A stretch of DNA of 64,000 bases from NCBI GenBank assembly GCA_001595385.3, contig LVEI03000001.1, forward strand, positions 1,455,501 to 1,519,500. Direction: 5' to 3'. Numbering within the stretch: the first letter of the stretch is position 1; the number at the start of each line of letters is the position of its first letter. Under the pieces are notes generated by a model. The model made no database searches, was not told where the DNA came from, and saw only the letters and a list, made by a program, of their open reading frames with translations. The translations under genes and the position numbers were made by a program. This document shows positions 8,771 through 17,908 of the stretch, in pieces. The DNA is from Deltaproteobacteria bacterium GWC2_55_46 (GTDB lineage: Bacteria > Desulfobacterota > GWC2-55-46).

Positions 8771-9754
8771 ATGTCAATTAAAACTTTCCGCGGCCCAAAG
8801 GGCCAAATGATGCTGATTTTCCTGGCACTTTCGGTGCTCTTGCACCTCTCCGCCGCCGCCCTGGTGAGCCTTTTACCCTCTATTGAAAGGGAAAAGCAAA
8901 CTACGCCGATACCCGTCGAGGTCGTAGATCTGCCCCATCCAAAACCCGAGAAAAAGCCACTTGTTGTCGCGGAGGTCCCGCCGGCGATAAAAGAGAACAT
9001 ATCTCCAGAGAAAAAGCGGCCAACCGTCTATGCCGACAGGGAGCAGAGCGTTAAAAAAGAGACCTATCCAAGGGGAACGCCTGCGCCAATGGTAAAGTCG
9101 CCCCAGCCTGTTCCGCCATCGCGTGAGGCGCCGAGGGTGATCGAAAGGCCGTTAAAGGCGGTCGAGGGGCCGGTTGCGAAGAAGAGCGAAGAGACAAGCC
9201 CTCAGCCGCTTAAACCCGTGGAGGAGGTAGTAAGGACCGCGCCCAGAGCTGAAGGGAAGACCATGGAGGAGGCAAGGCCAAGGCCAACGCCAGTTACACC
9301 GGCCAGGCCCCGGGTCTTCTCAGAGCAAAACAGGCCGAACCTTTACCCGACAGATGAAAGGCTTGCCGAGCTTACAAAAAACTATGAGGCCCAGTCCCCT
9401 TCAGGCGAGGTCGGCAAGACCCTGCAGCTCAATACCGCGGAGCTCAAGTACCAGAAGTACATACTCGACATGAAGAGGAAGATAGAGCTCTACTGGGACT
9501 ACCCGGACCTGGCGGCCCGGAACGGCTGGCAGGGGAGCCTCTGGATAACCTTCAGGATAATGAAGGACGGCACCGTATCTGACGTGAAGCTCGAGAGGTC
9601 TTCAGGCTACCCGATGCTCGACGACGCCGCGGTGACCGCCATCAGGATAGCAGCCCCATTCCCGCCCTTCCCGGCGAATTTTTCCGTCGAAGAGATAAAC
9701 ATAAAAGGGCAGTTCATGTATAACATTATCGGGCCTGCCGGGCGCCAGAATTAG
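8771..9754 (+). CDS. TonB-family energy-transducing protein
   Basis: The 327-residue protein has the TonB/TolA layout: a short cytoplasmic N-terminus, one membrane helix (residues 13-35, MLIFLALSVLLHLSAAAL), a long Pro/Lys/Glu-rich periplasmic spacer (40-215), and a C-terminal TonB domain (230-325) with WITFRIMKDGTVSDVKLERSSGYPMLDDAA split over that region. It would transmit proton-motive force to outer-membrane receptors or to the Tol system. ExbB/ExbD or TolQR partners are not in the window, so the partner system is unknown. A hairpin terminator follows at 9771-9799. Confidence 0.85.
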   Translation: MSIKTFRGPKGQMMLIFLALSVLLHLSAAALVSLLPSIEREKQTTPIPVEVVDLPHPKPEKKPLVVAEVPPAIKENISPEKKRPTVYADREQSVKKETYPRGTPAPMVKSPQPVPPSREAPRVIERPLKAVEGPVAKKSEETSPQPLKPVEEVVRTAPRAEGKTMEEARPRPTPVTPARPRVFSEQNRPNLYPTDERLAELTKNYEAQSPSGEVGKTLQLNTAELKYQKYILDMKRKIELYWDYPDLAARNGWQGSLWITFRIMKDGTVSDVKLERSSGYPMLDDAAVTAIRIAAPFPPFPANFSVEEINIKGQFMYNIIGPAGRQN

Positions 9755-9770
9755 GAGCGTAGAAAAAACA

Positions 9771-9799
9771 GGGGGGAGGGCGTCAAGACGCCCTCCCCC
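9771..9799. terminator. Bidirectional hairpin terminator
   Basis: A perfect GC-rich stem of 12-13 bp (GGGGGAGGGCGT against its complement) lies between the convergent TonB-family gene and the haem-protein gene. On the minus strand it is followed by a T6 run, making a good intrinsic terminator for the gene at 9828-11075. On the plus strand the T-tract is weaker. Confidence 0.75.
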
Positions 9800-9811
9800 G
9801 TTGTCATTGTG

Positions 9812-9825
9812 CTTTTTCAGCAGCC
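9812..9825. repeat. Dispersed 14-bp repeat, copy 1
   Basis: CTTTTTCAGCAGCC occurs here immediately after the stop codon of the minus-strand gene at 9828 and again at 43590-43603, overlapping the stop of another minus-strand gene. The shared 3'-end position suggests a small dispersed element or a remnant of one. Function unknown. Confidence 0.45.
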
Positions 9826-9827
9826 TG

Positions 9828-11075
9828 TTAAAACGCGGCAAAGAGCATGAGGGTGGTAAGATTATTCCCCTCATCCGGGGTCGGTCCTCCATCCCCGGTG
9901 TACCATGTGTGGTCGAGCTGGACCTGAAGATTCTGGATCGGCGTATAGACCACCCCCAGCGTGGTAGCGTCATCCGTGTCATCTCCGGCGGCCCCGCTAT
10001 TTCCGTCGCGGTAGACCGCGGCTACCGTAAGCTTCTGCGCTATCACGCCTACCTCCGCGGCGACAGTCCAGGCGCTCTTGTCTCCGGTACCTGTCTCGTT
10101 GAATATGTTGGGGTCATCGCTGGATGACGGGGCCTTGCCATAGGTCAGGTATACGCCGACAGGCAGCGCGCCCACACCGCCCTGCGCCTGCGCGTCAATG
10201 GCCCATGCCTCTGCCTTCTTTCTGGTCACAACGCCGTCTTCAAGGTTCTTCTCCACGCCACCCCAGACTTGTCCGCCAAACCCCAGGTCCCATCCTGCGA
10301 ATGTAGGCGTAAAGGCTAACCTGGCGTAATGCAGATATGGCCCTGACGATATCGAATTTCCCGTCTCAGCTGGATGCTCGTTCGCCCAGAGGGTATAATT
10401 GGCGAACCAGAGGCTGTTGACAGCGGCAAAGGTCAAACCCGTGGCCTCTGTCGCTGTGCCGATGTATTGCTGGGCCGAGGTCTCTGTACGGTGCTCAAGG
10501 AAGCGCTGGTGGCGAAGCGAACCGGTATTTAATAGCTCCAGTCCGTAAGCTGCGCCGAGCCCATCGGTAGTGAACGGGACTACGCTAATATTCGTCCCGC
10601 CCCCGCCGAGAGCGAAGACAAAGGGCAACTTGAATGAGGTGAATAGCGGCTCGCCTTCCTTTATCGCGGCCTCAAGGAGGAAACCCGCGTGCTCGCCTAC
10701 CCTGCCGCCGAGCAGGAGGGCTGCCTCATCGGGGAACTGAAGCGACCCCTTGTTAAGCTCGCCCGCTTCCCCGGCATCTGTGCCTCCGTTCCTCTTCTGG
10801 AAGCGTATCTTCGTTACCAGGCTGGCGTTCAAGACAGAGGGGAGCGAGAGGAAGTCACCTTCTATCATGCTCTGTCCGCCAGTCATCGTATATCCACCCG
10901 CCTTGAAGGAGCGGCCAAAGGCGTTAAGAGCCGGGAAATGCTGAAAATGGCATGAGCTGCACGCCATCCCCGTCTGCCGCGAAAAGGCCGGGATGGCCCC
11001 GGCGTCCTGCGGCATGAAAAACGAGACCGCGAGGAAGATGAGCCCCACATAGACCACTGATAGATTTACCCTCAT
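9828..11075 (-). CDS. Outer-membrane β-barrel protein with one c-type haem motif
   Basis: The product (about 415 residues) has a signal peptide to about residue 28, then a single haem-binding CSSCH (C40-x2-C43-H44 counting from a GTG at 11078) followed by HFPALNAFGRSFKAGGY. The rest is Gly/aromatic-rich β-strand sequence ending in Phe (LMLFAAF), the signature of outer-membrane barrels. Similar proteins in Geobacter-like bacteria pair a haem with a porin-like barrel and may serve in electron transfer across the outer membrane. That role is inference. ATG 11075 is chosen, with a GGGGG-type ribosome site upstream. A terminator follows at 9771-9799. Confidence 0.75.
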   Translation of the reverse strand: MRVNLSVVYVGLIFLAVSFFMPQDAGAIPAFSRQTGMACSSCHFQHFPALNAFGRSFKAGGYTMTGGQSMIEGDFLSLPSVLNASLVTKIRFQKRNGGTDAGEAGELNKGSLQFPDEAALLLGGRVGEHAGFLLEAAIKEGEPLFTSFKLPFVFALGGGGTNISVVPFTTDGLGAAYGLELLNTGSLRHQRFLEHRTETSAQQYIGTATEATGLTFAAVNSLWFANYTLWANEHPAETGNSISSGPYLHYARLAFTPTFAGWDLGFGGQVWGGVEKNLEDGVVTRKKAEAWAIDAQAQGGVGALPVGVYLTYGKAPSSSDDPNIFNETGTGDKSAWTVAAEVGVIAQKLTVAAVYRDGNSGAAGDDTDDATTLGVVYTPIQNLQVQLDHTWYTGDGGPTPDEGNNLTTLMLFAAF

Positions 11076-11303: not shown

Positions 11304-11801
11304 TCACTTCTTTTTAGGCGTCCTTACGTAAAATTCCCTGAAGACCTCCACGCACCCGTTCGGCACGTTGTAAAGGTAGATATCGGTCCCCCTGGAGCTT
11401 GATATCCAGGCGTATACATTCTCCCTCTTCCTGATATTGATGCTCCCGGCCGGATAGTTTTGCCTGTACTTTTCCGCGAGCGCGCCGCAGGTGTTCGTCC
11501 AGTAGGCGGTCACCGTCCGCGAGGCCTGGCACGAGCCGTCTTTCATGGGCAGGAGCGTAAGCGAGTAATGCTTCGTCCCCTGCAGGAAATCGACGAGCGC
11601 CATCTCGCTCTGCTTGTTCCAGAGGGTGTTCCAGTAGCTGTTCCCCTTTTTGAAGTCGTAGTCCAGCGCCTCAAGGCAGCTGTTGTTCAGGTTATTAATC
11701 AGCTCCTTTTTCATCCCCTTGCCTTCAAGCTCTTTTTTCACGTCGAACGCCCAGGCCGTTGAAGAGACAAGAAGGATCGCCAAAACAAAAACCAGTCTCA
11801 T
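11304..11801 (-). CDS. Small exported accessory protein at the end of the amyloid operon
   Basis: A 165-residue protein with a clear Sec signal (MRLVFVLAILLVSSTAWA, cleavage after residue 18). The mature part is basic and has four cysteines (NNSCLEALD, DGSCQAS, TNTCGAL, NGCVEVF), so two disulfide bonds in the periplasm are plausible. I do not recognise the family. It begins 16 bp after the outer-membrane channel gene on the same strand and is the last gene of the unit. In Pseudomonas fap operons the accessory FapE has no known enzymatic role. Equating this gene with FapE would be positional inference only. Confidence 0.6.
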   Translation of the reverse strand: MRLVFVLAILLVSSTAWAFDVKKELEGKGMKKELINNLNNSCLEALDYDFKKGNSYWNTLWNKQSEMALVDFLQGTKHYSLTLLPMKDGSCQASRTVTAYWTNTCGALAEKYRQNYPAGSINIRKRENVYAWISSSRGTDIYLYNVPNGCVEVFREFYVRTPKKK

Positions 11802-11817: not shown

Positions 11818-12876
11818 CTAATGGAATGACAGCCTCAGCTCCAATACATCGTCCGGCGCGTCACTGGTAAGGCCGAAGGTGGTCGAGAGGTCGATAGAAA
11901 GCTTGTCGCTCCACGCCCAGTTCCCGCCGAGGCGTATGGAGGAGGCGTTTATAAGCGAGCCCGCTATCCTCTCCCCGTCCTTCTGTGTCTCAAGGGTGAG
12001 GCTGTGCTGGTATTGCATGTTGACCGAAAGCCTGTAGCTCAACGCGTATGCCGCGCCGAAACCAAACTCGTAGGCATCGCCCGGAGAGAGTTTGAGCTGC
12101 CTGCTTACGTAGACTATCTCCTGCGTATCCGGGTCCTGCTCCGCAACGAATAGCGTATTCTTCCTCGGGAAGCTGTGTGTGTAGCCCAGGTTGAGGAAGA
12201 CGACCGCCGGGTCCGAGCTTTTTATGAATGAGAGCGTCCCCTTGAGCGAATTAAAGCCCGTGCCCATGGGCATCTCGCCCTTTGTGGGGTCTATCTCGAA
12301 TACGCTCTGCCCTGTCCTCGATTTGAAGGTAAGACCGGCCAGCAGATGCGGCATGGTCGCGGTCTCCTGCAGGGCATGGACGAGTACGGTGCCGTATATG
12401 TCACCCTTGCCCTGGTCGTAATTGATCACCTCGTCCTCACCGACCGCCACGTCCGGCCTGAAAAAGCTCTCCCTCTGGTACCTGTACGGGACCGTCAGCT
12501 CGAGCTGCACCCTGTCGGTTATTCCGACCTTGCCGGTGGGAGAGATTATGAAGATATCCCTTTTTATCTTCTCTACCGTTACCTCGCCGATGACGAGCAC
12601 CGGAAGCAGGGCGAACCCGTCTACGTATATCTGGCTCTCGGAGAAGTGGGCGTAAGACAAGCCCAGATCGAGCGCGAACTTGCCCTGGGGAAGGAGCAAC
12701 CCGCCCCTCCTCGCGTCAGTGGATACCGGGGTATGGTGCTCCCCCTTGAGGGCCTCCTTGGCCTGGTCAGGGTCTGTTGGCGCCTGTTGGACCGCCTCAT
12801 CCGCCTTTGAGTCAGCCGTGAAGATAAAAAACAGAAAAAGGGTTACTGAAAAACAAACCCAAAGAGCCTTCTTCAT
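11818..12876 (-). CDS. Outer-membrane β-barrel channel, candidate FapF-like secretion pore
   Basis: The 352-residue protein has a signal peptide (MKKALWVCFSVTLFLFFIF start) and a short helical, Ala/Gln/Glu-rich N-terminal region (residues 25-60). The remainder is amphipathic β-strands with the features of the 'phenol-degradation meta-pathway'/transporter barrel family (DLGLSYAHFSESQIYVDGF, QLELTVPYRYQRESFF, NLGYTHSFPR), ending LELRLSFH. ATG 12876 is chosen because GGAGG precedes it, although the frame stays open to 12936. FapF exports amyloid subunits through a barrel with a helical plug, and the location directly after the C39 peptidase gene fits that job. Substrate export is inferred. Confidence 0.65.
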   Translation of the reverse strand: MKKALWVCFSVTLFLFFIFTADSKADEAVQQAPTDPDQAKEALKGEHHTPVSTDARRGGLLLPQGKFALDLGLSYAHFSESQIYVDGFALLPVLVIGEVTVEKIKRDIFIISPTGKVGITDRVQLELTVPYRYQRESFFRPDVAVGEDEVINYDQGKGDIYGTVLVHALQETATMPHLLAGLTFKSRTGQSVFEIDPTKGEMPMGTGFNSLKGTLSFIKSSDPAVVFLNLGYTHSFPRKNTLFVAEQDPDTQEIVYVSRQLKLSPGDAYEFGFGAAYALSYRLSVNMQYQHSLTLETQKDGERIAGSLINASSIRLGGNWAWSDKLSIDLSTTFGLTSDAPDDVLELRLSFH

Positions 12877-12946
12877 CCATCCTCCAACCGCGATCGAGAT
12901 GTGCAAAGAGTATATACCGGTTTCAGGAGGACGCAACCGCCCCGCC

Positions 12947-13639
12947 TCAGAACCTTCTCAAGTCGTTTATGCCGTGCTGAAAAAAGTGGGGAGGAGGCTG
13001 GAGAAATCTCCAGAGCTCTTCCATGTATGGCGCGTCGGCCCGCCTGAAGCCGGGCTCCGGCTCGCCTTCCCTGTTCACCAGTAGAAAGATATTCTCGTAC
13101 CAGTAGTCGCTGAACTGGTAGACCGGCAGGGTCAGGTTGCCCTTGGCCGGGTCAGCGAGCTGGACCCTGTCGCCTTTTATCCCCCTGAAGACGACGAAAT
13201 GCTTGTAATTATTTATGACTATCGGCAGGAGCACGGCTGTGTTGGCCTTCGCAAGCTCCTCTATGCCGTCGGCCTTGTACCCTTCCGCCTTATAGCCCCT
13301 CTCTGAGGCGAACCTCTTAAGGTCCAGTATCGAGAACCCCTTCCTCGCCACTATCTGGGCGATGTCTCCCTTGCGCAGGATCCCGTCTATGACCTCGTCT
13401 TCCCGAACCGTGTCTCCGAGGATATTAAGAAGTGTAGCCATCGCCGCCGACCCGCAGCTGTAATCGAACTTCTGCATCACCACGCCAGAGGTGCGCATCT
13501 CCCAGACGTTCCTTATCTCTTTAGTGAAGGCCATACCTCCCGCTGTTATCCGGTATTCCATTGCAACGGCCTCTCCGGCGGCGAGGGGCGCGAGAAAAAA
13601 GGCCAGAATAGTCCAGGCTAAAAATGCGGCTCTTGTCAT
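12947..13639 (-). CDS. Periplasmic C39-family cysteine peptidase, candidate FapD-like processing enzyme
   Basis: A 230-residue protein with a Sec signal (about 1-26). The catalytic pattern of C39 peptidases is present: Gln and Cys in QKFDYSCGSAAMATLL, His in NNYKHFVVF, and Asp in LADPAKG. C39 enzymes normally remove leader peptides at double-Gly-type sites. Stand-alone exported versions (FapD) occur in Pseudomonas fap amyloid operons. Here it follows the amyloid-like genes by about 60 bp and precedes the barrel gene, and the subunits carry an AQG-ending leader-like motif that it might cleave. GGAGGGG precedes the start codon. Enzyme class is strong. The substrate assignment is inference. Confidence 0.8.
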   Translation of the reverse strand: MTRAAFLAWTILAFFLAPLAAGEAVAMEYRITAGGMAFTKEIRNVWEMRTSGVVMQKFDYSCGSAAMATLLNILGDTVREDEVIDGILRKGDIAQIVARKGFSILDLKRFASERGYKAEGYKADGIEELAKANTAVLLPIVINNYKHFVVFRGIKGDRVQLADPAKGNLTLPVYQFSDYWYENIFLLVNREGEPEPGFRRADAPYMEELWRFLQPPPHFFQHGINDLRRF

Positions 13640-13656
13640 TTCCCCTCCGTAAAAGT

Positions 13657-13685
13657 GGAGGGAGGGGCTTTAAGCCCCTCCCTCC
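13657..13685. terminator. Perfect GC hairpin between amyloid gene B and the C39 peptidase gene
   Basis: Two 14-nt arms (GGAGGGAGGGGCTT and its exact complement) lie in the 62-bp spacer between the stop of the second repeat-protein gene and the peptidase start. On the transcribed (minus) strand only a short TTTTA follows, so it may act as a leaky terminator or as an RNA 3'-end stabiliser that steps down expression of downstream genes. Confidence 0.6.
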
Positions 13686-13701
13686 GGTCTTCAAGACGGT
13701 C

Positions 13702-15534
13702 TTAGTTCTTGTTCACGGCGTAGGCAAAGGTACCGCCGTCCGCGACGTTGGAGTAGTTGACCGCGGTATTGGTGTTGAACTGTTTCACGCAGGTCTGGCT
13801 GAGGGTCCCGGCGTTAATGACGTTCAACCCGGCGTTCACAGCGGACGCCGCTGAGTTTATGAGGACGACCGCGCTCGCGTAGCGCTGGGCGTTGTCATTC
13901 AGCTGGACCGAGTTCATGTTGTTGTCCTGGGTCCCATTGCTCAGGTCGGTGGCAAAGTAGTTCTCCACGACCTGGGTCTGCTTGTACTTGTTCTTTGCCG
14001 TCGCTTCGCCTTCAAGCGCGAACGCGTCGTTGTAGTGGTTCTTCGCGGTCTGCGTGTTCTCCTGATGGATAACGGAGTTGGTCACGTCGCCGCCGGCGTT
14101 GTCCCAGTTGATGAGGTTCTGCCCGACGTTCACCGCGGAGTTGGCCGAGTTTATAAGCTTGTCCACGGTCACGTACTGCTGGGCATTGTCGTTCACCTGG
14201 ACCGAGTTGTTATTGTTGTCCTGGTCGTAGATTATAGCGTAGTTATTCGCGATATACTGCCCCGGGTCGTCGGATGTCTCCCAGTTCCTGGCCTTCGCGT
14301 CAGTACCGCCGTCGGCGTAGTTATCGAAGTTCTCGGCGGTCTGGACGTTTTTCTGGTAGATGGTGTCATCGCTATTGGTGATGTCGCCTACGTCCAGGAC
14401 GTTCAGCCCGGCGTTCACGGCAGAGGAGGCCGAGTTCTCGAGGAGCACAGCGGATACGTTCTCCTGCGCGTTGTCGTTCAGCTGGACCGAGTTATTGTTA
14501 TTCTCCTGGTCCTCTATAACGGTCGTAAGCTGAGCCGTTACAGGGAACTCCCCGTTGTGGACGTGCTGTGTCTGCTTGTTTTGGTTCTCCGCGTATGCGT
14601 CCCCGTCAACAGAAAACGCGTCGTTCACATGGTTTTCAGCTACAGCGGTGTTGGTCTGGTAGATGTCCGTGCCGGTAACGTTGCCCACAGTGGCGAGGTT
14701 CGCGCCGGTGTTGGTCGCCGACTTGGCGGTATTGACGAGCGAATCAACGAGGGCGTTCTGCTGGGCGTCGTCGTTCACCTGGACCGAGTTGTTGTTGTTG
14801 TCCTGGTATTCTATGGTGGTGTCCAGGAAGGAATTCTCTATCCGCTGGGTGACGACCCCTTCCTCATAGTTCTGGGCGTACGCGGCACCGTCTTCGGCGT
14901 CAGCGGTGTTATTCATGTTGTAGGCGCGCTGGGTGTTGGTCTGGGTGATATCACCGCCGGCGATGTTGCCTGAGTCAGAGCTGTAGATATTGAGGCCGAA
15001 GTTGTTGGCGCTGAAGGCCGAGTTCAGGACGCTTACGCCCTCTGAGTTCTGCTGTGCGTTGTCGTTCATCTGGACAGAGTTGTTGTTGTTCTCCTGGTCC
15101 TCGATAGTCACAAGGAAGCTATTATTCACATCCTGGGTCTGCTTGTTGAGGTTCTGCGCGTATGCGTCGTTATTAAATGCAAACGAGTCATTCACATGGT
15201 TCTTGGCCGTGTTGTCGTTCTCCTGCTCTATTCCAGAGGAGGTCGCTGGGCCGCTGTAGAGGAGGTTGGCCGAGGCGTTGACGGCGCTTACCGCCGAGTT
15301 GATTAGCCCTTCGACATTGCTGCTCTCCTGAGCGAAGTCGTTCAGCTGAACGGAATCGAGGTTGTTGTTCTGGTCGGCTACAGGAAAATTGCTCTCGTTC
15401 ACAATGGTCTGGATGCCCTGGGCGCTTACCCTGTCCATCTCGGAATCAGAGAGGGCCGCCGAGCCTGCGAACGCCGTCCCACTGCCTGCCAGTGTTATGC
15501 CTACAGCGAGTGCGAACGCCTTTCTTAAAGTCAT
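13702..15534 (-). CDS. Fap-like functional-amyloid repeat protein B (secreted, Asn/Gln-rich)
   Basis: The 610-residue protein has a Sec signal (residues 1-23, ending AFA), then a leader-like LSDSEMDRVSAQG, then six imperfect repeats of about 90-100 residues. Each repeat opens with Q(D/E)NNNNSVQ(L/V/M)NDNAQ, continues with an LINSAxSAVNxGxNL block, and closes with IxQxNTQTAxNxxNDAFA and KQTQ. The SAVNxGxN...Q.NTxTA logic resembles the GVNVAAG...NQQ.N repeats of FapC. The last unit contains the only cysteine (LSQTCVKQF). AAGGAGGAAG precedes ATG 15534, and the longer frame to 15609 has no such site. It is a tandem duplicate of gene A (16103-17908). The amyloid assignment is by repeat logic and operon context, not by a database match. 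Confidence 0.75.
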   Translation of the reverse strand: MTLRKAFALAVGITLAGSGTAFAGSAALSDSEMDRVSAQGIQTIVNESNFPVADQNNNLDSVQLNDFAQESSNVEGLINSAVSAVNASANLLYSGPATSSGIEQENDNTAKNHVNDSFAFNNDAYAQNLNKQTQDVNNSFLVTIEDQENNNNSVQMNDNAQQNSEGVSVLNSAFSANNFGLNIYSSDSGNIAGGDITQTNTQRAYNMNNTADAEDGAAYAQNYEEGVVTQRIENSFLDTTIEYQDNNNNSVQVNDDAQQNALVDSLVNTAKSATNTGANLATVGNVTGTDIYQTNTAVAENHVNDAFSVDGDAYAENQNKQTQHVHNGEFPVTAQLTTVIEDQENNNNSVQLNDNAQENVSAVLLENSASSAVNAGLNVLDVGDITNSDDTIYQKNVQTAENFDNYADGGTDAKARNWETSDDPGQYIANNYAIIYDQDNNNNSVQVNDNAQQYVTVDKLINSANSAVNVGQNLINWDNAGGDVTNSVIHQENTQTAKNHYNDAFALEGEATAKNKYKQTQVVENYFATDLSNGTQDNNMNSVQLNDNAQRYASAVVLINSAASAVNAGLNVINAGTLSQTCVKQFNTNTAVNYSNVADGGTFAYAVNKN

Positions 15535-15565
15535 TTTGCTTCCTCCTTGGTTGTTTGTTGTTAAG
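15535..15565. repeat. Duplicated 31-bp leader, copy B
   Basis: The 31 bases upstream of the start of amyloid gene B are identical to those upstream of gene A (17909-17939), including the AAGGAGGAAG ribosome site. Sequence identity stops abruptly beyond, marking one edge of the tandem duplication. Confidence 0.85.
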
Positions 15566-15590
15566 CTGCGTTCAATCCCCCATGCCGCTT

Positions 15591-16037
15591 TTACAGCGTA
15601 CCGCTCCATACGAGAAGGCTGTTAAGGATGCCTAGCGAGGTGTTGGTCTGGTTCACTGCGCCGTTGTTGTCGCCGTTGATGACGGTTATGTTTATCCCGA
15701 TAGGCACGGCGCTATTGGCGGCGTTCAGGTTCAACAGCGAGTTCAGGTTGCTCTGCGCGTTGTCGTTGAGCTGCACCCCGTTCTGTATACCCGTTGCGCC
15801 ATTCCCCAGGGTCTGTGAGGCGCTTCCAGGCAGGGTAGCGCCCGCGATGACCTGGCTAAGGTCAAGGGTGCCGTCGAGGTTCGGGACGAACATGTTGTAG
15901 TCGAGGTAGACGATGAGCCCCTGGGCGTGGACCGTGTCAAGGTACTCGTCAGAAAGCCTGTGAATGGCGCCGTCGGCCTGCGGGGCCATAAGCCACAGGG
16001 ACAAGAATGCCCAGATTGTGAAGGCGAGTCTTTTCAT
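15591..16037 (-). CDS. Single-repeat amyloid-like minor subunit
   Basis: A 148-residue exported protein (signal about 1-23, MKRLAFTIWAFLSLWLMAP start) followed by LSDEYLDTVHAQG, the same leader-like motif as in the two large neighbours. One repeat unit follows: GVQLNDNAQ, LNAANSAVPIGINI, and NGAVNQTNTSLG. GGGAGGA stands before ATG 16037. Its single repeat, position between two major repeat proteins and shared leader suggest a minor subunit or nucleator, as FapB is to FapC or CsgB to CsgA. This role is inference. The sequence similarity to its neighbours is directly visible. Confidence 0.7.
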   Translation of the reverse strand: MKRLAFTIWAFLSLWLMAPQADGAIHRLSDEYLDTVHAQGLIVYLDYNMFVPNLDGTLDLSQVIAGATLPGSASQTLGNGATGIQNGVQLNDNAQSNLNSLLNLNAANSAVPIGINITVINGDNNGAVNQTNTSLGILNSLLVWSGTL

Positions 16038-16054
16038 TTCTCCTCCCTTTATTT

Positions 16055-16084
16055 GAAGGAGGGGGCTATTACGCCCCCTCCTTC
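16055..16084. terminator. Perfect GC hairpin between amyloid gene A and the minor subunit gene
   Basis: Arms of 12 nt (GAAGGAGGGGGC and its exact complement) with a 6-nt loop occupy the 65-bp spacer. No U-tract follows on the minus strand, so full termination is unlikely. It parallels the hairpin after gene B and may set subunit stoichiometry by partial termination or transcript protection. Confidence 0.55.
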
Positions 16085-16102
16085 CAGTGGTTCAGCCCCG
16101 TC

Positions 16103-17908
16103 TTAGTTCCTGTTCACGGCGTAGGCGAAGGTCCCGCCGTCCGCAAAGTTGGAGTAGTTGACCGCGGTATTGGTGTTGAACTGTTTTACGCAGGTCTGGC
16201 TGAGGGTCCCGGCGTTAACGACGTTCAACCCGGCGTTCACAGCGGACGCCGCTGAGTTTATGAGGACTACCGCGCTCGCGTACCTCTGGGCGTTGTCGTT
16301 CAGCTGGACAGAGTTCATGTTGTTGTCCTGGGTACCAATGAGCACGGTATCGGCGTTATTTGCGATCCACTGGGTCTGCTTGTAGGCGTTCTCGGCGGTC
16401 GCTATCTCGTCAGACGCGAAGGCGTCATTATAGTGGTTCTTAGCGGTCTGCGTGTTCTCCTGATGGATAATGGAGTTAGTCACGTCGCCGACCGTCCAGT
16501 CCCAGTTGATGAGGTTCTGCCCGACGTTCACCGCGGAGTTTGCCGAATTTATGAGCTTGTCGACGGTCACGTACTGCTGGGCGTTGTCGTTAAGCTGTAC
16601 GGAGTTGTTGTTGTTATTCTGGTCTAAGATGACAGCAACGTCTTCGTTTATGATTAACTGCCCGGGGCTTGCCGCGGTCTCTTTATTGCTGGCAGTGGCG
16701 TCTTCGCCGCCGTCGGCGTAGTTGTTGAAGTTCTCGGCGGTCTGGACGTTTTTCTGGTAGATGGTGTCATCGCTATTGGTGATGTCCCCTACGTTCAGGA
16801 CGTTCAGCCCGGCGTTCACGGCGGAGGAGGCCGAATTCTCGAGGAGCACCGCCGATACGTTCTCCTGCGCGTCGTTGTTTACCTGGACCGAATTGTTGTT
16901 GTTCTCCTGGCTCACTACAACGGAGAAATCACCGTTAATGACGTTCTGGGTCTGCTTGTTGTAGTTATTGGCGTATGCGTCCCCGTCAAAGGCAAACGCG
17001 TCGTTCACGTGGTTTTCAGCTACAGCGGTGTTGGTCTGGTAGATGTCCGTTCCGGTAACGTCGCCCACCGTGGCGAGGTTCGCGCCGGTGTTGGTCGCCG
17101 ACTTGGCGGTATTGACGAGCGAGTCAACGAGGGCGTTCTGCTGGGCCTGGTCGTTCACCTGGACCGAGTTGTTGTTGTTGTCCTGGTCCACGATCACTGA
17201 GAAAAAGTCATTGACTACCAGTTGAGTGATGAGGCCTTCCTCATAGTTCTGGGCGAATGCGTTTACCTCGCCATTTGCGGTGTTGTTCATGTTGTAGGCG
17301 TGCTGGGTGTTGGTCTGGGTGATATCACCGCCGGCGATATTGCCTGAGTCAGAGCTGTAGATATTGAGGCCGAAGTTGTTGGCGCTGAAGGCCGAGTTCT
17401 GGACGCTTACGCCCTCTGAGTTCTGCTGTGCGTTGTCGTTCATCTGGACAGAGTTGTTGTTGTTATCCTGCCCTTCTATAACTGAGAACTCGTCATTGTT
17501 AACGTACTGTGTCTGCTTGTTGAGGTTCTGCGCGTATGCGTCGTTATTAAATGCAAACGAGTCGTTCACATGGTTCTTGGCCGTGTTGTCGTTCTCCTGC
17601 TCTATTCCAGAGGAGGTCGCTGGGCCGCTGTAGAGGAGGTTGGCAGAGGCGTTGACGGCGCTTACCGCCGAGTTTATTAGCCCTTCGACGTTGCTGCTCT
17701 CCTGAGCGAAGTCGTTCAGCTGAACGGAATCGAGGTTGTTGTTCTGGTCGGCTACAGGAAAATTGCTCTCGTTCACAATGGTCTGGATGCCCTGGGCGCT
17801 TACCCTGTCCATCTCGGAATCAGAGAGGGCCGCCGAGCCTGCGAACGCCGCCCCACTGCCTGCCAGGGTTATGCCTACAGCGAGTGCAAACGCCTTTCTT
17901 AAAGTCAT
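16103..17908 (-). CDS. Fap-like functional-amyloid repeat protein A (secreted, Asn/Gln-rich)
   Basis: A 601-residue protein and first gene of the operon. It has a Sec signal to about residue 23, leader-like LSDSEMDRVSAQG at about 29-41, then six 90-100-residue repeats with the Q(D/E)NNNNSVQLNDNAQ core. The mature chain has one cysteine (near the C-terminus, SQTCVKQF) and is rich in Asn, Ala, Val and Gln, typical of bacterial functional amyloids. It matches gene B almost completely in the first 110 residues and in the NDNAQ/SAVN blocks, but differs in the 12-20 residues before each QxNNNN core. AAGGAGG precedes ATG 17908. A σ54 promoter lies 221 bp upstream. Predicted fate: Sec export, leader processing, passage through the barrel, and surface fibre formation. 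Confidence 0.75.
   Translation of the reverse strand: MTLRKAFALAVGITLAGSGAAFAGSAALSDSEMDRVSAQGIQTIVNESNFPVADQNNNLDSVQLNDFAQESSNVEGLINSAVSAVNASANLLYSGPATSSGIEQENDNTAKNHVNDSFAFNNDAYAQNLNKQTQYVNNDEFSVIEGQDNNNNSVQMNDNAQQNSEGVSVQNSAFSANNFGLNIYSSDSGNIAGGDITQTNTQHAYNMNNTANGEVNAFAQNYEEGLITQLVVNDFFSVIVDQDNNNNSVQVNDQAQQNALVDSLVNTAKSATNTGANLATVGDVTGTDIYQTNTAVAENHVNDAFAFDGDAYANNYNKQTQNVINGDFSVVVSQENNNNSVQVNNDAQENVSAVLLENSASSAVNAGLNVLNVGDITNSDDTIYQKNVQTAENFNNYADGGEDATASNKETAASPGQLIINEDVAVILDQNNNNNSVQLNDNAQQYVTVDKLINSANSAVNVGQNLINWDWTVGDVTNSIIHQENTQTAKNHYNDAFASDEIATAENAYKQTQWIANNADTVLIGTQDNNMNSVQLNDNAQRYASAVVLINSAASAVNAGLNVVNAGTLSQTCVKQFNTNTAVNYSNFADGGTFAYAVNRN

Follow-up and report, generated by a model that had tools for sequence, protein, structure and literature searches.

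Exported C39 peptidases such as FapD, and double-glycine leaders, are each already known separately. FapD of the Pseudomonas Fap amyloid system is periplasmic, and its catalytic cysteine is needed for secretion of FapC, which the C38A substitution abolishes (Rouse et al. 2017, PMC5557850). Which protein does FapD cut? The same paper left the target open: canonical C39 sequences were absent from the Fap proteins and FapE was proposed as the likeliest substrate. Mature FapE, alone among the Fap proteins, gave no peptides from its first ~70 residues (PMC5557850). The NCBI name of the family, 'fibril amyloid maturation endopeptidase FapD', indicates that curators already expect a role in maturation. 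The double-glycine leader has the consensus LSxxELxxIxGG and is cut directly after GG (Dirix 2004, as quoted in PMC3897388).

Here we describe an operon in which secreted repeat subunits bear a leader of this type behind a Sec signal. It lies in a window of 64,000 nucleotides, the whole stretch of DNA that was analysed, from Deltaproteobacteria bacterium GWC2_55_46. Among the open papers of PubMed Central we found no earlier description of a Sec signal followed by a double-glycine-type leader as the substrate signal of an exported C39 peptidase.

The operon, its leaders and its peptidase

The genes lie on the minus strand in the order large subunit 1, small subunit, large subunit 2, C39 peptidase, barrel and 165-aa protein. 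Large subunit 1 (601 aa; 16103-17908) consists of a Sec signal, the leader and six N/Q-rich repeats of ~95 aa each. A Sec signal and leader also begin the small subunit (148 aa; 15591-16037) and large subunit 2 (610 aa; 13702-15534), the latter 86% identical to subunit 1. Both large genes have an identical Shine-Dalgarno context, AAGGAGGAAGCAAAATG, ahead of MTLRKAF, so the 635-aa open reading frame of large subunit 2 begins 5' of the true start. The first ~134 residues of the two large subunits, leader included, are nearly identical (15400-15534 and 17774-17908), as against 86% identity along the whole length, which points to a recent duplication or to gene conversion. AlphaFold, given two sequences as input, modelled the large subunit at a pLDDT of 31, a value too low for the model to be informative. 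The three subunits are followed by a stand-alone C39 peptidase of the FapD/FilB type (230 aa; 12947-13639), by a homologue of the outer-membrane barrel FapF (11818-12936; NCBIfam FapF 1.1e-38, BLASTP against Pseudomonas FapF 8e-34) and by an exported protein of 165 aa (11304-11801). This last protein, in which no leader was seen, also lies downstream of the barrel in the C39-positive relatives L055, L056 and L074.

Directly behind the Sec signal all three subunits carry the motif LSD[SE][EY][ML]D[RT]V[SH]AQG, its Leu being residue 28 in each. In both large subunits the Sec signal is followed by GSAA-LSDSEMDRVSAQG, and the small subunit reads AIHR-LSDEYLDTVHAQG. A degenerate DNA pattern of the motif matched three times in the 2,788,758-base genome, always within the operon, and its reversed control did not match at all; the shared motif noticed in an earlier note on this DNA is thus borne out. 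A chance origin is ruled out by this genome-wide count together with the random-region controls described below.

How closely does the motif resemble a double-glycine leader? Set position by position against LSxxELxxIxGG as quoted in PMC3897388, LSDSEMDRVSAQ fits with L-12, S-11, E-8, M-7, V-4, A-2 and Q-1. The small-subunit leader keeps the register of L-12, L/M-7 and V/I-4, Tyr at -8 being its sole misfit. The canonical Gly-Gly (or Gly-Ala/Ser) at P2-P1 is absent from the three subunits, which have A-Q there. Judged by its sequence, the subunit leader is a variant rather than a canonical double-glycine leader. From its fit in register with the quoted consensus, A-Q stands for G-G, the next Gly becomes P1' and the predicted cut is AQ^G, a position that we infer from the register. 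This would be Q39^G40 in each subunit: behind leader LSDSEMDRVSAQ of subunit 1 (residues 28-39; 17792-17827, minus strand), behind LSDEYLDTVHAQ of the small subunit (residues 28-39; 15921-15956, minus strand) and behind LSDSEMDRVSAQ of subunit 2 (residues 28-39; 15418-15453, minus strand). Orthologues of the small subunit read HAK^G (L056) and HAR^G (L074) at the predicted cut. The earlier note had recognised a bacteriocin-type leader with AQG in place of GG; the leader type stands, but the replacement is AQ, the Gly falling at P1'.

The C39 reading frame matches Pfam Peptidase_C39 at 1.2e-17 (64.4 bits, cut-off 22). As had been proposed, it has its own export signal and an intact catalytic set: Q56, C62, H147 and D163 are invariant in an alignment of 28 exported C39 proteins. 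Residue 60, two before the catalytic Cys, is Tyr. Against NCBIfam the best match is FilB (5e-38; 131 bits against a curated cut-off of 475), followed by FapD (1.7e-30), both under their curated cut-offs; BLASTP against Pseudomonas FapD gives 1e-25. The AlphaFold model (pLDDT 86.5) has a predicted C39 papain-like fold, and its best PDB match in Foldseek is the leader-bound double-glycine protease 6mpz (E 2.3e-8, TM-score by target 0.80). The first phmmer match is LahT150, the same protein as 6mpz, at 3.6e-10. Family, catalytic set and modelled fold point to a C39 double-glycine peptidase, for which proteolysis of leaders is predicted.

The window genome encodes one more exported protein that is C39-like and probably a lipoprotein (G000:C1:1118249-1118629; locus L002, 1456-2028 and 2239-2646, both minus). 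Its partner is a small exported protein ending in LNPGG and a membrane helix, with the GG outside the leader register; we take the pair to resemble PA2778/PA2779.

Leaders beside exported C39 genes

Loci with exported C39 genes were retrieved by the peptidase alone, blind to their neighbours. At 36 such loci in the phylum of the window, the leader core was present in 48 of 196 Sec-type reading frames within five genes. In 20 regions drawn at random from these genomes it was present in 3 of 161 (Fisher 5.6e-11), and under a stricter definition of the leader the counts were 17 and 0, respectively. Named genomes, scanned with the C39 alignment, supplied 80 further loci in Pseudomonadota, Desulfobacterota, Acidobacteria, Omnitrophota, Aquificota and others. 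At 73 of these 80 at least one Sec-exported neighbour has an in-register leader; by neighbouring reading frames the figure is 192/885, as against 6/360 in control regions under relaxed ORF calling. A position-specific matrix (PSSM) built without P1, with its threshold of 8 set above every control score (control maximum 6.8), found the leader at 111 of 122 loci. It found none at the other 11, contig ends or gene calling being to blame in some. The search behind Sec signals near exported C39 genes, which the earlier note had put forward as a check, thus came out in its favour.

The logo of 204 unique leaders reads L-12, S/D-11, D/E-10, E-8, L/M-7, V/I-4, T/S/R-3, G/A-2 and Q/G/R/E/K-1, in agreement with the double-glycine consensus in its quoted form. 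Positions -11, -10, -8, -6 and -3 are conserved though the regular expression leaves them free; the two-polar filter partly constrains -11 to -8. The family also contains true GG leaders, VPEEELGEVRGG^YAGFYF (L044), LKDEELDQIRGG^YSGFYF (L076) and LTDDELNQYRGG^YSGFYF (L048). P1 follows the nearest signal-peptidase-like site at an almost fixed distance (a median of 15 residues, with quartiles of 15-16), and the Sec-exported leader proteins themselves span 71-879 aa.

Some loci have features of their own. At L178, L154, L162 and L191 one exported C39 adjoins a cluster of small exported proteins (79-221 aa; as many as five) with LSxxQMDxVTAG leaders; the one such protein that was scanned (L178:3316-3642) had no Pfam or NCBIfam match. 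At L071, L072 and L073 the exported C39s have large C-terminal extensions (open frames of ~450-520 aa) and several GQ-type leader proteins adjoin.

Are leader and peptidase found together across whole genomes? Homologues of the large subunits occur in 4 of 30 relatives of the window genome, and all 4 have the C39. Over 395 genomes of the phylum, a GQ-type DNA pattern gave four matches in open frames, all adjoining a C39 and all in two C39-positive genomes; its two remaining matches contain in-frame stops. The AQ-type pattern gave 8 matches outside the window genome, mostly without a Sec signal and about as many as its reversed control, which makes the strict AQ pattern unfit for a phylum-wide test of presence. 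Just one of these stands behind a Sec signal (G046, locus L103), in a genome without a FilB-type C39, and is probably a helix coincidence. The earlier note had held that the segment in genomes lacking any C39 peptidase would speak against it; the GQ-type matches all lie by a C39, and the AQ match in G046 is the probable helix just described, so that the note was not refuted on this count.

Many neighbours of C39 genes match the family DUF6160 (PF19657), whose members carry the leader. Of 274 gammaproteobacterial genomes, 36 have a FilB-type C39 and six encode DUF6160; the six all belong to the 36 (hypergeometric 3.5e-6, kinship of the six ignored). These six are exactly the genomes with the six best FilB scores of the 274, and DUF6160 leader proteins are here confined to genomes with an exported C39. 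In G692, G579 and G411 such proteins are spread over many contigs, up to 15 per genome, against one match to an exported C39; so many scattered proteins for one peptidase suggest action in trans.

The P1 residue, the proposed maturation and its rivals

When the columns of the C39 alignment were scanned against P1 of the adjoining leaders, residue 60 was picked out. Its counterpart in papain, likewise two before the catalytic Cys, forms part of the wall of the S1 pocket. Where residue 60 is aliphatic or otherwise non-aromatic (21 loci), P1 is Gly, Ala or Ser in 44/44 leaders; of the 84 loci with Tyr or Phe there, 79 have a bulky P1, mostly Gln or Arg. The window operon, with Tyr60 and P1 Gln, obeys this rule. 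The association has a Fisher value of 1e-17. Since only 2-3 independent changes can be counted on the tree (on average 1.7 in the same direction and 0 in the opposite one), and since residue 60 was selected by the scan itself, the link is suggestive rather than proof. Residue 60 as a perfect diagnostic of P1 was dropped when the leaders were re-called with the PSSM, the regular expression without Pro/Ala having misread GG leaders (L044, L047, L051).

We propose that the subunits are made with two successive N-terminal signals. The Sec signal would bring them to the periplasm and be removed by signal peptidase, leaving a propeptide of ~15 residues that ends in LSDSEMDRVSAQ or LSDEYLDTVHAQ, a double-glycine-type leader. 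The C39 peptidase of the operon would recognise L-12, L/M-7 and V/I-4 and cut after Ala-Gln (AQ^G), and the mature subunit would be freed to pass the FapF-like barrel and assemble outside. We infer from the register and its recurrence that cleavage occurs, at this bond, and that it may license secretion or assembly. Two-step maturation, by signal peptidase and then by a periplasmic C39, is in our judgement the best explanation, with a probability of roughly 0.8. The core of what the earlier note had suggested is strongly backed by the ~120 related loci; the cut that it placed after AQG is not, the register giving AQ^G, and its idea that processing may prevent early assembly gains no support from these comparisons.

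What else might account for these observations? One point against two-step maturation is P1, which in these leaders is mostly Gln, Arg, Glu or Lys though canonical C39s want Gly. The leader might be recognised and left uncut, the exported C39 serving as a chaperone or docking factor and the leader as a targeting signal for the FapF-like barrel, by analogy with the C39-like domains of some type 1 systems. Such a role would explain the co-occurrence of leader and C39 with no need of Gly at P1, and catalytically dead C39-like domains do exist (PDB 3zua and 3b79 are among the structural matches; PMC5557850). We nevertheless consider it improbable: the family keeps Q, C, H and D without exception, C38A in FapD abolishes secretion (PMC5557850), and the size of P1 tracks a residue near the catalytic Cys, which is unexpected if nothing is cleaved. 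The C39 might instead cut after AQG, one residue further on, or at some other bond close by; this is unlikely but deserves some weight, since the Gly behind AQ does not vary among the three nearest systems and P1 of the small subunit varies between Q, K and R. On the other hand, the spacing of L-12, L/M-7 and V/I-4 is that of the GG leaders of the family (VPEEELGEVRGG^Y, LKDEELDQIRGG^Y) and of LSxxELxxIxGG as quoted, and it puts the Gly at P1'.

That the motif prolongs the Sec signal, or is an amphipathic helix arisen by chance, with no relation to C39, we find scarcely credible. The Sec protein in G046 (L103), in a genome without a FilB-type C39, does fit the AQ pattern, probably as a helix. 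But random Sec proteins mostly lack the leader (3/161 by regular expression, 6/360 with relaxed ORF calling, a PSSM maximum of 6.8 against the threshold of 8), and DUF6160 tracks C39 over the 274 genomes.

Comparison with Fap, Fil and peptidase-containing transporters

If Sec-exported subunits are matured by a C39, what of FapD itself? In a canonical Pseudomonas fap operon (L206; FapD 401 bits, cut-off 330; FapE 347 bits against NCBIfam FapE), the N-terminus of FapE reads MKVIPLLAATCIVACLPVRA-ESVFKPIE-LKDQELAQLRGK-YVMPG. The leader LKDQELAQLRG[KR]^[YF] is present in 23/23 Pseudomonas homologues, all of which keep L-12, D-10, L/M-7, L-4, R-3 and G-2, with Lys or Arg at P1. The register yields a predicted bond at residue 40/41 of FapE, and FapD probably cuts at leaders of this type. 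In the precursor peptides GSAALSDSEMDRVSAQGIQTI and ESVFKPIELKDQELAQLRGKYVMPG the predicted cuts would fall after AQ and RGK, respectively. The region of FapE missing in PMC5557850 (~70 residues) exceeds the 40 predicted from the leader, which counts against this bond; the tryptic data are uninformative on the cut because P1 is Lys or Arg, where trypsin itself cuts. The earlier note knew of no such leader in Fap proteins. The site indeed goes unnamed in the literature searched, but the leader itself exists in FapE.

No leader was found in the inspected regions of FapB and FapC of L206. The protein that is FapA by position (9450-9899, minus) has, far from its N-terminus, a segment resembling the leader, LSDSDFAGVTSG / ELSDSDFAGVTSG. 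Since peptides have been reported along the whole of FapA (PMC5557850), we discount this segment; it may be uncut or a decoy.

A Sec signal plus double-glycine-type leader is quite likely a widespread bipartite signal for trans-acting periplasmic maturation. One stand-alone exported C39 would then serve several unrelated secreted families (Fap-like subunits, FapE, DUF6160/FilA, the small LSxxQMDxVTAG proteins), at times dispersed through the genome, in the way that prepilin peptidase processes many pilins, and the choice of P1 would be governed by residue 60. FapD activity is essential for secretion of the Fap amyloid, and an explicit recognition motif and bond can now be proposed for the whole family: FapE 40/41 in Pseudomonas and Q39/G40 in the three window subunits. 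Hundreds of exported C39s, from several phyla of bacteria, thereby acquire predicted substrates, the leader would account for the conserved N-terminus of DUF6160 proteins, and proteolysis is suggested as a possible gate on fibre secretion.

How does the window operon stand beside the described systems? As in Pseudomonas Fap, a FapD-type exported C39 and a FapF-type barrel, homologues scoring under the NCBIfam equivalog cut-offs, share one operon with secreted N/Q-rich subunits, and Pseudomonas FapE has the same type of leader behind its Sec signal. Unlike FapB and FapC of L206, the major repeat subunits of the window themselves bear the leader. Homology of these subunits to FapB/FapC was considered and dropped, BLASTP giving E values of 0.57 and 0.29 and NCBIfam no match; nor was any gene of the operon recognised as homologous to FapA or FapE. 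From its encoded proteins the operon is best classed as Fap-like, not Fap.

The putative Fil pilus system (FilA/FilB/FilC) is similar in that the operon C39 scores best against FilB, and that DUF6160/FilA-like proteins bear in-register GQ-type leaders next to FilB-type C39s. It differs in that the window C39 falls under the FilB cut-off, that DUF6160 is absent from the operon proteins, subunits included, and that P2-P1 is AQ rather than GQ. From the peptidase-containing ABC transporters and the LahT type (PCAT1, ComA, LahT150) the window C39 differs in several respects: it has no ABC transporter fusion, it has its own export signal, its candidate substrates are Sec-exported and its action is presumably periplasmic, and P1 in the leaders of exported C39s is mostly other than Gly. 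With PCAT1, ComA and LahT150 it shares the peptidase fold, the catalytic residues and, by the consensus as quoted, the leader register.
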